Virus record (IMG/VR): IMGVR_UViG_3300046000_006374
Location: 1-21,723 of that record
Length of the DNA stretch: 21,723 nucleotides
DNA from: a virus
Direction: 5' to 3' (one strand)
Both the position numbers and the translations under genes were made by a program. The notes beneath the pieces are model-generated. The model did no database searches. It was not told the DNA's origin and worked only from the letters and a program-made list of their open reading frames with translations. Positions 698 to 11,110 of the stretch are shown here, piece after piece (position 1 is the first letter of the stretch; every line of letters starts with the position of its first letter).

Positions 698-2002
698 ATG
701 GGTATTGACGCTTCGATTTACGGCGGCATCAAGCCGATTCAGATTGAGAACCCGCTTACGCAATACGCGCAGTTTTCGCAATTGCAGCAAGCGCAGAGCC
801 AGAACCGGCTTGCGGACTTGATGTTTGGCGAGAAGGAACGCGGACTTGCTGACGAAAAGGCGATGAACCAGCTATACGCTGGCGCGGTCGGCGCAGATGG
901 GAAGATCGACCGGAGCAAACTGTTCTCCGGCTTGGCGCAGGGCGGTTTCGGCAGCAAATTACCCGGCATCCAAGAGAGTTTTGCCAAGGGCGATAAAGCG
1001 CGGGTTGAGATGGATGAAAAAACGCTCAAACTCGCCGCTGATCGTTACAAGATGTACCAGGGAGCATTGGGCGCATTATCGCAAGAGCCGAATCTGACGA
1101 AGGATATGGTTGTTCAGGCAGGGCAGGCGCTTGTGCAGCAGGGTATATTGCCTGCCGAACTGTTTGACAAGTCCGTTGCAAGCCTGCCTGATGACCCCGT
1201 GCAGCTTAGGGCGCGGATTGCGCAAGGGCTGAAATCGCAACTCACGCCGGAACAGATGTTCACCATCTTTGCGCCGAAGCCGGAGAAGATCGACAGCGGG
1301 CAGCAAATCAGCTTCAAGGACACGAACCCGAACAGTCCGACATTCGGGCAGATGGTCGGCGGCGCTCCGACGCAAAAAGTGCAAACGCCGGACTCCGTAG
1401 CATCCAACGCAACGTCGAGCGAGAACAACAAAAGGGCGGTTGGCGCATCCTACGCGAACGCAAGCGCAACCCGCGCCGTGGCTGCGTCCAACGTTGAAGC
1501 CGCGAAGATCAAAGGCAACCGCGATACGGAAATGAAGCTGGCCGATGACTTCAATGCGCAATCCAAGGGGTTCAAAGAAGTCAGCGACGCTTACCGCACC
1601 ATCAATGCGACCTTGGATAAGGCAACCACATCGGCTGCTGCCACGCTGGCCGGCGCGACCAAATTCATGAAGCTGCTTGATCCTGGCTCAGTCGTGCGCG
1701 AGTCTGAATTGGGCATGGCCTTGGCCGCTACAGGCGTGTTTGACCGGGCAACCAATTACTTCAACACGCTACAGCGCGGCAAGGTGCTGACTAAGAGCCA
1801 AGCGGCGGATTTTAAGAACATCACGAATCAGATTTACAAGGCCGCGCAGGAAGGGCAGAAGTCGATTGACGCCAGCTACAAACAGCGGGCAAAGGAGTAT
1901 GGATTGCGCCCTGAGATGATTGTTCAAGACCTCGGGCAGAATCAACCCGGCGCGGCGGCTCCATCCTCGTTGCCTAGTGGCTGGACTGTTGAGGAAAAAT
2001 AA
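698..2002 (+). CDS. Putative internal virion / DNA-ejection protein, gp20-like
   Basis: 434 aa, starting at an ATG 3 nt after the previous stop. The N-terminal half is Gln/Leu/Ala-rich and helical-looking (QFSQLQQAQSQNRLADLMFG). The middle has a low-complexity Ser/Asn/Ala region (about 240-275) and the C-terminal third is helical again (SQAADFKNITNQIYKAAQEG), ending in a Pro/Ser-rich tail. No enzymatic motif is visible. Size and position as the second of three consecutive structural genes resemble P22 gp20, one of the proteins ejected into the host periplasm to help DNA entry. That role is inferred; a generic internal structural protein is the alternative. Its TAA stop shares one base with the next ATG (TAATG at 2000-2004), implying translational coupling. 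Confidence 0.6.
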   Translation: MGIDASIYGGIKPIQIENPLTQYAQFSQLQQAQSQNRLADLMFGEKERGLADEKAMNQLYAGAVGADGKIDRSKLFSGLAQGGFGSKLPGIQESFAKGDKARVEMDEKTLKLAADRYKMYQGALGALSQEPNLTKDMVVQAGQALVQQGILPAELFDKSVASLPDDPVQLRARIAQGLKSQLTPEQMFTIFAPKPEKIDSGQQISFKDTNPNSPTFGQMVGGAPTQKVQTPDSVASNATSSENNKRAVGASYANASATRAVAASNVEAAKIKGNRDTEMKLADDFNAQSKGFKEVSDAYRTINATLDKATTSAAATLAGATKFMKLLDPGSVVRESELGMALAATGVFDRATNYFNTLQRGKVLTKSQAADFKNITNQIYKAAQEGQKSIDASYKQRAKEYGLRPEMIVQDLGQNQPGAAAPSSLPSGWTVEEK

Positions 2003-3669
2003 TGCCATCCTTTGAATTTACTTCGCCAGAAGGAAAGAAGTACACGGTCAACGGGCCTGATGGGGCGACAAAGGAGCAAGCATTCCAAATACTGCAAAAG
2101 CAGATTGGCGGCGCATCTGAGCCAACCGTTATGCAGGGCATTAAGCAGGGCGCTGGCAACCTTGCTGCTGGCCTGATCCGTGGCGCTGGCTCAATTGGCG
2201 CAACGGTGCTTGCTCCTGCCGATATGTTCAACGATTGGATGGCGGGCAAAGGGCTGTCGCTGGATTCAAATCGTGACCGCAGGGCTTTGATGGATCAGTT
2301 CATGCGCGAACGTGGCGCGGAGCCTGACTCGTTGATGTACCAAGGCGGCAAGCTCGGCGGTGAGATCGCGGGTACGGCTGGCGCTGGCGGGGCAATTGCG
2401 AATACAGCCCGCGCTGTGCTACCGGCATCTGCCGCAGCTAATCCATTAGCTGCCAAATTGCTTGAGTCGGTCGCTTCTAGCGGATTCCGTACCGGCGCTC
2501 CTGTGGCTAACAGCCTCATGGGGCGGGCTGGCGATCTAGGTATTCGGGCAATCGGCGGCGCTACGGCTGGCGGCGCTTCGGCAGGGCTGGTTAGTCCGCA
2601 AGATGCGGGCTTGGGCGCGATGATCGGTGGCGGGCTTCCCGTGGCCGCTGCCGGTGTCGGCAAGACGTTTCAAGCCGCTGGCAAGGCATTGCGTGGCGGC
2701 GAACTGTCGCCAGAGGTCAAGGCATTGGCTATCAGGGCAAAGGAAATGGGGATTGACATCCCCGCCGACCGCTTGGTTAATAGCCGCCCATTGAACGCGG
2801 TTGCGTCAGGGTTAAATTATGTCCCGTTCAGCGGCAGGGCAGCGACCGAGGCCAAGATGGATAGGCAACTTACGCAGGCGGCTACTCGTTTGTTTGGGCA
2901 GGACTCTGACAATATGATGCTCGCCTTACGCAAGGCATCCGATGACCTCGGCGGCAAGTTCGATGCGACTTTGCGAAACAACGTGGTCAACTTCGATAAG
3001 CAATTGCTTGATGATGTGACGAGCGTGTTCAATACCGCGCAAAAGGAACTTGGTGCGGACTCGCTCAAGGCAATTGGCGGTCAGATTGACGAGTTAGTAG
3101 CCAAGGGCGCGGACGGTGTTATTGACGGCCAAGCGGCATACAACATTAAGCGCACACTGGATCGCATCGGGCGCAGGCCGACGCCGGAGGCATTTCACGC
3201 GCTTGAATTAAAGCGGGCGTTAATGGGCGCGTTGGATCGTTCACTTGGGGCTGAAAAGGCGGCAGCGTTTGCCACAACACGCCAACAATACGGGAACATG
3301 CTTTCACTTGAGAAGCTGGCAAAGAACGGCGTGGAAGGTGAAATATCCGTCGCACGGCTCGCCAATATGCCGAACATCAACAATCCGGCGCTCCAAGAAG
3401 TTGCCGACATTGCGGCACAGTTCGTCAAGGCGCGTGAAGGCCAGCACGGGGCTATGCAGAGGGCTATGGCCGGGCTTGCTACTGCAAGTCTTGGCGGGCC
3501 TATGGGATTGGCTGCTGGAGCCGCTGCGGGGCGCGGAACAAACATGCTGCTAAATAGCAGCGTCACGAAGAACGCGCTTACCGGCCAAATAAACCCGGCT
3601 GTTGAAAATGCGTTGACCGAAGCGTTGAAGCTAACTTACAAGACTGCGCCAACAATCAGCGCCCGGTGA
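2002..3669 (+). CDS. Putative DNA-ejection / membrane-active virion protein, gp16-like
   Basis: 555 aa. The N-terminus (FEFTSPEGKKYTVNGPDG, then GATKEQAFQILQKQI) is a short module often seen at the start of phage and prophage structural proteins. It is followed by a long Ala/Gly-rich stretch (about 45-230) with several hydrophobic segments that could insert in or cross a membrane. The central part (about 240-470) is charged and helical. A second Gly/Ala-rich hydrophobic patch lies near 485-515. Such alternation fits a large ejection protein like P22 gp16, the last of the 7-20-16 trio. No catalytic motif is seen. The function is inferred from size, composition and gene order. The 3' end overlaps a tiny convergent gene on the opposite strand. 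Confidence 0.6.
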   Translation: MPSFEFTSPEGKKYTVNGPDGATKEQAFQILQKQIGGASEPTVMQGIKQGAGNLAAGLIRGAGSIGATVLAPADMFNDWMAGKGLSLDSNRDRRALMDQFMRERGAEPDSLMYQGGKLGGEIAGTAGAGGAIANTARAVLPASAAANPLAAKLLESVASSGFRTGAPVANSLMGRAGDLGIRAIGGATAGGASAGLVSPQDAGLGAMIGGGLPVAAAGVGKTFQAAGKALRGGELSPEVKALAIRAKEMGIDIPADRLVNSRPLNAVASGLNYVPFSGRAATEAKMDRQLTQAATRLFGQDSDNMMLALRKASDDLGGKFDATLRNNVVNFDKQLLDDVTSVFNTAQKELGADSLKAIGGQIDELVAKGADGVIDGQAAYNIKRTLDRIGRRPTPEAFHALELKRALMGALDRSLGAEKAAAFATTRQQYGNMLSLEKLAKNGVEGEISVARLANMPNINNPALQEVADIAAQFVKAREGQHGAMQRAMAGLATASLGGPMGLAAGAAAGRGTNMLLNSSVTKNALTGQINPAVENALTEALKLTYKTAPTISAR

Positions 3670-3798: not shown

Positions 3799-5193
3799 AT
3801 GCCGCTTTACCCTCTGTTTGCGCTTGGGCAAGAAGGAAAGTCCAAGACGGTCACGGCGCAGCGGCATCTAAACCTTTACGCCGAGCCATCCGACGATAAA
3901 AGCCAGCTAAATTTCTACGGGACGCCGGGCACATCGCTGTTTTTCTCGTTTGGAGCCACACCTGTTCGCGGAATGCTGCCTGTCGGGGATTATCTCTATT
4001 GCGTTCATCGCGGCACGTTCTACGAGGTGAACAACGCCGGGGTCAAGACTTCACGCGGCACGATTGGCACGACCACTGGCCGGGTGCAGTTGTGCAGCAA
4101 TGGCACGCAGATTGCGATTGTCGATGGCGCGGCGCTGTGGGTCTACACGATAGCTTCCAACGCCTTCGCGCAGGTCACGACGAACCTTTTAGCTGTGCCG
4201 ATTGATGTGACCTATCAGGACGGGTACGGCGTGCTGACGTTTGCCGATGGACGGTTTCAGATTACCGCGCTTTACGACTTCAAAACGCTGGATGCTTTGG
4301 AGTATGCGACCGCTGAAAGCAATCCTGATGGACTGGTGCGGATTCTGGCCGACCACGGCGAATTGATCCTGGCAGGCGAGAACACCACGGAGTTTTGGGG
4401 CAACTCAGGCGGGCAGGATTTCCCTTACTCGAATATGCGGGGCGCTACGCTTGAATGGGGCTTGGCTGCGCCTTGGTCGCTGTGCAAGTACAACGACAGC
4501 GTGGCGGGGCTGTTCCGTAACTCTATGGGGCAAGTACAGGTCATGATGTTGGCCGGTCATGCGCTCAAGAAGATTAGTTCTCCCGAAGTTGACTATCTGA
4601 TTAACGGATATTCGGCGGTGGCTGACTGTACGGGATTCGCGTACATGCTCGGCGGTCATCCCATGTTGCAGTTGAATTTCCAGTCTGCGGGTAAATCGTG
4701 GCTGTACGACTCACTAACCGGACTTTGGAGCGAATTGCAATCAGGTCTGTCCGGTGCGCGGCATATCGGCGAAATACATGCCGACTACATCAACAAGCCG
4801 CGAGTATCGGATTACAGCAGCGGCAATGTCTACACGTTGGAAGCCGACACTTACACCGATAACGGCACGGCGATTCCCCGCGAGATCATCAGCAAGCACG
4901 TTCTCAACAATCTCAAGGATTTGACGGTTCACGCGCTGCAATGTGACTTTGAAACCGGCGTGGGCTTGGTATCAGGGCAGGGCAGCGACCCGCAAGCCAT
5001 GTTGCAGATTTCACGCGACAACGGGCGCACTTGGGGCAATCAACGTTGGGCGAGCATGGGCAAGATCGGCAAATACCAGACCCGCGTGATATGGCGTCGA
5101 TGTGGTACGGCGCGGGATTTCGTGTTCAAGATTCGCATGACTGATCCGGTCAAGTTTGCACTGTCGGGCGCTGCCTTGGATGTAGGCCAATGA
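3799..5193 (+). CDS. Packaged-DNA stabilisation / tail hub protein, P22 gp10-like
   Basis: 464 aa; the ATG follows AAGGA by about 7 nt. The protein resembles P22 gp10, the tail-hub protein that closes the portal after packaging. It has a repeated beta-rich blade pattern in the N-terminal two thirds, the block YATAESNPDGLVRILADHGE (compare gp10 RAESQPDG), then a hydrophobic-TTEFWGNSG stretch (gp10 SSTIEYF). The C-terminal block has SRDNGRTWG and VIWRRCGTARDF, followed by KIRMTDPVKFALSGAALDV; gp10 ends with VLWKRVG...FKLRVITKSPVTLSGCQI. Length is close to gp10 (about 470 aa). In P22 the gene precedes 7-20-16, whereas here it follows the ejection-type genes. The next gene starts inside its stop codon. 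Confidence 0.78.
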   Translation: MPLYPLFALGQEGKSKTVTAQRHLNLYAEPSDDKSQLNFYGTPGTSLFFSFGATPVRGMLPVGDYLYCVHRGTFYEVNNAGVKTSRGTIGTTTGRVQLCSNGTQIAIVDGAALWVYTIASNAFAQVTTNLLAVPIDVTYQDGYGVLTFADGRFQITALYDFKTLDALEYATAESNPDGLVRILADHGELILAGENTTEFWGNSGGQDFPYSNMRGATLEWGLAAPWSLCKYNDSVAGLFRNSMGQVQVMMLAGHALKKISSPEVDYLINGYSAVADCTGFAYMLGGHPMLQLNFQSAGKSWLYDSLTGLWSELQSGLSGARHIGEIHADYINKPRVSDYSSGNVYTLEADTYTDNGTAIPREIISKHVLNNLKDLTVHALQCDFETGVGLVSGQGSDPQAMLQISRDNGRTWGNQRWASMGKIGKYQTRVIWRRCGTARDFVFKIRMTDPVKFALSGAALDVGQ

Positions 5194-9819: not shown

Positions 9820-10752
9820 TTAAATTTTAGCCGCAATGTCCGACGCGCTCGGCCTGTAATACACGTTCATCAGCAAATTGAGGTTGCGATGCCGCGAGAT
9901 TTTCGCCAGCGTCATCACGTCAACCTTACGCGCAAGGTGCGTTAGCGCAGTTGCCCGCGAGTCGTGAAAAGTGAGTCCGCTAATCAGCAGTTCCTTGCAT
10001 AGCGTCGTGAATAGCGTGCTAGCTTCGTTCGCGCCAACGATGAACGCAGGGCGGTCTAGCAGTTTGGCGGCGATCCGGCCAATCGGGATATTCGCCATGC
10101 CTTCGGTCTTGGTCTTGATCCTGACCACGCTTGCCCGCTTGTCGAAGTTCTCCGGCGCTCGCATGACCTCCCCAAGCCGCATTCCCGTCCGCAGGGCGAT
10201 ATGAAACGCTGCCTGTACCTCGGCGGTCTTGCCTGATCGTTTCGCCCGTAGAACTCGCTTGATAAGCTGCCACGGCCATACGGTCACGCGGGCATCGTTC
10301 TCACGCGGCAGCTTCACGCCTTCAAACGGGTTGCGGTCGATCTTGCGCCATTCCAGGCGGGCGACGTTAAACACGTTGCGCAACAGATTAGCCTCGCGCA
10401 CCACGGTTGAGCCGCTGACCGTCTTGACCCGCAAGTCTCGCCATTGGGCAATATGTGGCGAGTCTATATCGGCAAGCGCCATGTTATCGAACATGGGCAT
10501 GGTAAGCATGGCATCGAGTCGCCGTATCTCCCAAACGCCGCCTGTTTTCTGGCTGGAAACGTCCGTTTTGTATTTGAGAACAGCGTCGGCAAAAGTCATG
10601 CCAGATGACGACCGCAGGCGCTTGGCTTGCGATTCTTGCTCGACCGCCCACTGTTGGGCTTCGCGCTTGGTGTCGAACACTTTGCTCGTGCGGGAGCCGT
10701 TGCGCTCGATCTGCACGCGCCACTTGTCTTTGTACTTGCTGATGTAGGCCAT
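9820..10752 (-). CDS. int: Tyrosine-recombinase integrase
   Basis: 310 aa from the ATG at 10752, chosen because MAYISKYKDKWRVQIERNG is the usual beginning of an integrase arm-binding domain; an upstream ATG at 10851 would add 33 atypical residues. Domains: N-terminal three-stranded arm-binding module (1-50), core-binding SAM-like domain (about 52-135), then the catalytic domain. Catalytic residues visible: Arg in TGMRLGE, H263-x-x-R266 (HDSR), H288 (RHRN), and the nucleophile Tyr298 or Tyr299 (VYYRP). It mediates site-specific recombination between attP and the host attB. The gene is last in leftward orientation, downstream of the putative attP core, and converges with the late genes. No clear ribosome-binding site is seen. 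Confidence 0.93.
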   Translation of the reverse strand: MAYISKYKDKWRVQIERNGSRTSKVFDTKREAQQWAVEQESQAKRLRSSSGMTFADAVLKYKTDVSSQKTGGVWEIRRLDAMLTMPMFDNMALADIDSPHIAQWRDLRVKTVSGSTVVREANLLRNVFNVARLEWRKIDRNPFEGVKLPRENDARVTVWPWQLIKRVLRAKRSGKTAEVQAAFHIALRTGMRLGEVMRAPENFDKRASVVRIKTKTEGMANIPIGRIAAKLLDRPAFIVGANEASTLFTTLCKELLISGLTFHDSRATALTHLARKVDVMTLAKISRHRNLNLLMNVYYRPSASDIAAKI

Positions 10753-10867
10753 CTGTGCGGGATCGGTGTGCGGGAAAAATGCGGGGAGATATGAAGATAT
10801 TGCCACAATCAACCGATGCCGCATAGAGCGTAACAGGGCGAACAGTACCATGCTTTACCTATGGGAA

Positions 10868-10887
10868 TGCCGGGAGCCGGAATCGAA
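10868..10887 (-). other. Putative attP core: 3' end of a tRNA gene
   Basis: Read on the - strand this is TTCGATTCCGGCTCCCGGCA, which divides exactly into a tRNA T-loop (TTCGATT), the 3' T-stem strand (CCGGC), the 3' acceptor strand (TCCCGGC) and discriminator A. The bases before it (GCCTGAC) do not pair with the T-stem and no 5' half exists, so it is only a tRNA fragment. Such fragments are the usual crossover core of integrases that target tRNA genes, and it lies next to int. Phage genes flank it on both sides, so this should be attP rather than attL or attR. The target could be a tRNA-Leu-type gene (acceptor 5' GCCGGGA expected), but this is uncertain. Confidence 0.75.
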
Positions 10888-10888
10888 G

Positions 10889-11110
10889 TCAGGCATGAAT
10901 TTCGCCAAATGCGGGATTCGTGCGGGTTTTCGCGTGATTTCCCCTCAAATAATCCCGCACATCCGAACTCAGCCAGCGCGGAAAGCGGTCTGACGATCCC
11001 GGCACGATAGCAGGGAACCCAATACGCTTGACGATCATGTCTCTTGCATACTTCCGCTTGACCTGATAGAGGTCGGCAATATCGTCCAGCGTCATCAATT
11101 CGTCAGTCAT
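10889..11110 (-). CDS. Excisionase-like HTH protein
   Basis: 73 aa with a strong ribosome-binding site (GGAGG) upstream and an ATGA overlap with the preceding gene. Residues 6-30 (MTLDDIADLYQVKRKYARDM) fit a MerR/excisionase-type winged helix, followed by FPRWLSSDVRDYL, the wing and helix typical of HTH_17 proteins. Size, basic character and position beside int and the putative attP core indicate Xis, which directs the integrase towards excision. Its stop codon lies one base from the tRNA-derived core. Another HTH regulator is possible, but location strongly favours Xis. Confidence 0.75.
   Translation of the reverse strand: MTDELMTLDDIADLYQVKRKYARDMIVKRIGFPAIVPGSSDRFPRWLSSDVRDYLRGNHAKTRTNPAFGEIHA

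Follow-up and report, generated by a model that had tools for sequence, protein, structure and literature searches.

A tRNA-Leu(CAA) 3' end between excisionase-like and integrase genes as the probable attP of a podovirus-like temperate phage

Integration at a tRNA gene is an ordinary and well-understood route by which phages enter the chromosome. The locus examined here raises the question of why the 3' end of a tRNA gene should lie by itself between an excisionase-like gene and an integrase gene in 21,723 nucleotides of viral DNA (IMG/VR record IMGVR_UViG_3300046000_006374; this whole stretch is called the window), and of which tRNA it comes from.

A tRNA 3' end and its surroundings

The minus strand from 10887 to 10868 reads TTCGATTCCGGCTCCCGGCA (plus strand, tgccgggagccggaatcgaa), a sequence with a single copy in the window. 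It divides into TTCGATT, CCGGC, TCCCGGC and A, which is the 7-nt T-loop, 5-nt T-stem strand, 7-nt acceptor strand and discriminator A that the first-pass annotation had recognized. That annotation had also described a tRNA lacking its 5' half and its 5' pairing partner, and both points held: CCGGC has no pairing partner in the CTGAC just 5' of the core, and ARAGORN called no tRNA gene in the 21.7-kb window, which probably represents an incomplete phage genome.

The two flanking genes were likewise identified as proposed (Table 1). In the tyrosine integrase the catalytic residues R192, H263, R266, H288 and Y298 (R, HxxR, H, Y) are invariant in the alignment. The gene likely starts at the ATG at 10752, which is preferred over the longest-ORF start at 10851 because homologues begin at MAYI; the core lies 115 bp upstream of this start. 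On the other side, the stop codon of a small HTH gene is one base from the core. The matches of its 73-aa product to phrog_66, annotated as 'excisionase and transcriptional regulator', and to phrog_4996 are weak; of 34 related regions, 27 encode a homologue immediately before int, and the protein is probably an excisionase.

Around the core, six TGCGGG/CCCGCA motifs fall within about 200 bp, versus 24 in the other 21.5 kb of the window. Random placement of 30 motifs would produce a cluster of six like this with a P of about 2e-4, an optimistic figure in that the motif was picked after inspection. Related loci carry 70 motifs versus about 12.5 expected over 32 loci, some of them near duplicates and some without any motif. 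The motif positions recur in relatives near -33, -22 and -9 from int; these P' positions are identical in the related locus L040, with close variants in L032, L041, L054, L055 and L063. By analogy with known tyrosine integrases, the motifs are best read as putative arm-type integrase sites.

Table 1. Features of the proposed attachment region, in window coordinates
Feature	Position	Strand	Basis or remark
Tyrosine integrase (int), 310 aa	9820..10752	-	PF00589 6.6e-11; phrog_1 4e-43
Putative P' arm, three TGCGGG (CCCGCA on the int strand)	10756, 10769, 10780 (10756..10785)		Next to int start
Proposed attP common core	10868..10887	-	tRNA-Leu(CAA) 3' end, T-loop to discriminator A73; identical to the ends of tRNA-Leu(CAA) genes in bacteria and beside prophages
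Small HTH excisionase-like gene (xis), 73 aa	10889..11110	-	phrog_66 1.1e-4; phrog_4996 1.2e-6; HTH_17 below cut-off
Putative P arm, TGCGGG and inverted CCCGCA	TGCGGG 10910, 10921; CCCGCA 10954 (10910..10959)		Within 3' part of xis

Related loci and an integrated relative

An exact search of 2.9 million IMG/VR contigs located the 20-mer in six stretches. Four of them have it as the end of a complete tRNA-Leu(CAA) that starts with GCCGGGA, and the remaining two (L002 and L005) are close kin of the window phage with the core at the homologous att position. As judged from these sequences, the tRNA is a tRNA-Leu with anticodon CAA, which refines the identity beyond the first reading. In two of the stretches with a complete tRNA (L003 and L006), an integrase-like ORF could be discerned in the translations just 3' of the tRNA.

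A search with the integrase alignment returned 51 related viral loci, of which 36 had usable sequence upstream of int. A tRNA-Leu 3' end, CCGGC[TC]CC[CG]GGCACCA or close to it, lies upstream of int in 25 of these 36, mostly at a distance of 107-170 nt; the best core match in L055 (16/25) was judged spurious and left out of the count. In L026 and L027 an intervening HNH endonuclease gene lengthens this core-to-int spacing to 713 nt. An HNH_3 endonuclease gene in this position was seen in L005 (6424-6927, minus strand) as well as in L026/L027, versus only about 115 bp in the window.

About 20 un-integrated Leu-type sites conserve the block TTCCGGCnCCnGGCACCA and often differ in the T-loop; the family-wide core begins at about TTCCGGC rather than at the T-loop, where it was first placed. 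From this pattern we infer that strand exchange takes place in the T-stem region, near the T-stem/acceptor junction, corresponding to Islander class J. Other relatives depart from the Leu type, with different tRNA-like or non-Leu cores: L041, L046, L049 and L057 have the CCTGTCGAGGGGACCA type in common, L053 has one of its own, and a Leu-type core is absent from L054, L055 and L063. CCCGCA motifs are retained in several of these loci, which suggests target switching with constant arm motifs among related integrases.

Three relatives (L040, L051 and L060) have a complete tRNA-Leu(CAA) upstream of int and no xis, which is the integrated form. The first of them lies on the same contig as one of the four exact-match stretches with a complete tRNA (L007), in a provirus record (G001) whose integrase is 57% identical to that of the window. 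At its int end, G001 has a complete tRNA-Leu(CAA) with the core at 1204 and the int start at 1333; at its other end, 36.7 kb away, it has a second core at 37898 and xis at 37670-37834. The two core copies have TTCCGGCTCCCGGCACCA in common and differ in their T-loops. When the two ends are joined, the result is xis-core-int, as in the window, and therefore the window is read as attP in un-integrated DNA, as was originally suggested; the tRNA-Leu 3' end found between xis and int in related phages agrees with this. The further expectation of prophages bounded by the tRNA end was borne out in part, in that this related provirus combines a full tRNA-Leu(CAA) with a displaced 3' end, but no lysogen of the window phage was found.

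We are thus highly confident that the core is the attP of a temperate podovirus-like phage that recombines with the 3' end of a host tRNA-Leu(CAA) gene. Given the GC-rich segment CCGGCTCCCGGC, one might take the core for a chance match or a terminator-like element. However, all six exact matches among the viral contigs are tRNA-Leu ends or lie at the homologous att position, the core keeps its place beside integrases of 39-94% identity, and a terminator was looked for at the core without one being found; conservation already excludes a chance match, and this explanation as a whole has next to no probability. Nor does it help much that phages can carry tRNA genes, which would allow the core to be a truncated phage-encoded tRNA gene without a role in integration: the window has no tRNA and the 5' pairing side is missing, and the placement beside int, inside arm-like repeats, is kept in relatives, making a mere gene remnant extremely improbable as well.

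The core could also be the attR of an integrated prophage or the remnant of another element's past integration, given that a displaced tRNA 3' end in an attR looks identical and that one bacterial genome (G444) has a displaced 3' half of tRNA-Leu(CAA) of independent origin. Against this, the core is flanked by phage genes on either side, int at 115 bp and xis immediately next to it, whereas the integrated relative has one of these two genes at each end; moreover, the xis-att-int order is common to most related virus records. We consider such an origin very unlikely. The displaced half in G444 (L090, G444:C157:6613-6635) extends from near the anticodon, with the complete gene (L092) elsewhere in that genome, and is a probable trace of another element that uses tRNA-Leu(CAA) at an anticodon site.

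With the core taken as attP, the integrase would bind at the core and at the CCCGCA arm sites on its flanks and recombine attP with the 3' terminus of the tRNA-Leu(CAA) gene in the host; we infer that the window phage uses the same tRNA as its relatives. In the resulting attL, on the int side, the phage copy of the core would replace the displaced tRNA 3' end, so that attL would consist of the 5' part of tRNA-Leu(CAA) joined to TTCGATTCCGGCTCCCGGCATTCCCA, and in attR the host's own tRNA 3' end would be left adjoining xis at the opposite end of the prophage. Because attP separates them, xis and int would come to lie at opposite prophage ends, and in the lysogen int would follow the tRNA gene, separated from its phage operon. 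A literature search on xis and int at opposite prophage ends found none, which says little in that it demanded every term together. When attL was assembled in silico with three tRNA-Leu genes, ARAGORN called a tRNA-Leu(CAA) and made no call in attR.

The window record is linear and showed no circularity, and it is probably a fragment of a phage genome because no terminase, portal or capsid was recognized among the proteins scanned. P22-like stabilisation/head closure and DNA ejection proteins were noticed at 3799-5193, 2002-3669 and 35-694, and these indicate a podovirus-like particle.

The probable target gene and the missing CCA

The first-pass annotation had predicted a host tRNA ending in the 20-mer with GCCGGGA as its acceptor 5' strand, and a search of bacterial genomes found such tRNA-Leu(CAA) genes in the order of Pusillimonas. 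The 20-mer is present in 3 of 60 genomes of this order, followed by CCA in every case, and a further family member beyond these also has the same tRNA end; 369 genomes sampled across the class of Pusillimonas gave no exact match. In Pusillimonas noertemannii (contig C2 of G015), tRNA-Leu 3' ends were noted at 173669 (L083) and 250647 (L013/L068), about 77 kb apart, one copy adjoining a distant (28%) integrase; the pair is possibly the mark of a large integrated element at tRNA-Leu.

Scanning genomes with the integrase alignment turned up no close lysogen, the closest integrase being 28% identical, and among annotated phages the integrase retrieved identities of about 36% or less only. One structural protein of the window had no match among annotated phages, and its helicase gave broad matches only, below 40% identity; the structural protein and helicase searches were uninformative, and therefore no host is named by that route.

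The core of the window ends at the discriminator (GGCATTC) without CCA, as do those of the close relatives L026 and L027; CCA is kept in 23 of the 25 Leu-type relatives, and no genome with GGCATTC was seen among the bacterial genomes searched. In-silico integration into three tRNA-Leu(CAA) genes left a recognizable tRNA through A73 with the encoded CCA gone. Integration into the known CCA-encoding targets would accordingly remove the gene-encoded CCA. Lysogeny might then turn a CCA-encoding tRNA-Leu(CAA) into a gene that needs RNase Z-type 3' processing and a CCA-adding enzyme, a tentative proposal that we hold to be rather unlikely; if true, one tRNA of the lysogen would be under different maturation control. 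Alternatively, the tRNA-Leu(CAA) of the actual host simply has no encoded CCA.

Relation to known integration systems

The analysis fixes tRNA-Leu(CAA) as the likely integration target of an uncultured phage lineage. The attP architecture, with its core, arms and xis-att-int order, helps host prediction and the calling of prophage boundaries in dozens of related contigs, and both the absent CCA and the swapping of cores while the arm motifs stay constant pose small, testable questions on how integrases adapt to their targets.

The window shares with the tRNA islands and prophages collected by Islander an integrase and an attP containing a 3' piece of the targeted tRNA gene; those islands restore the tRNA gene at one end and leave the displaced fragment at the other, as would be the case here, and site-J cases, in the T-stem region, make up 1836 of 3919 (PMC4383910). 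The window differs from these elements in the position of attP, between xis and int, and in a core devoid of CCA (PMC4383910). Mycobacteriophage Omega, as cited in one paper, integrates at attB-11, a tRNA-Leu-CAA, and resembles the window in its tyrosine integrase, in the isotype and anticodon of its target and in the reconstruction of the tRNA; unlike that of the window phage, its host is actinobacterial, and the two are likened by description (PMC10865867). Mycobacteriophage Gaia, an example of tRNA-dependent lysogeny, also integrates at tRNA-Leu-CAA, but with an 8-bp core that does not restore the tRNA, and it carries a tRNA-Leu-CAA of its own (PMC10865867). Lysogeny of this Fionnbharth/Gaia type was set aside for the window phage: its 20-bp core would rebuild the tRNA body and restore the tRNA through A73, and no phage tRNA was seen in the window.
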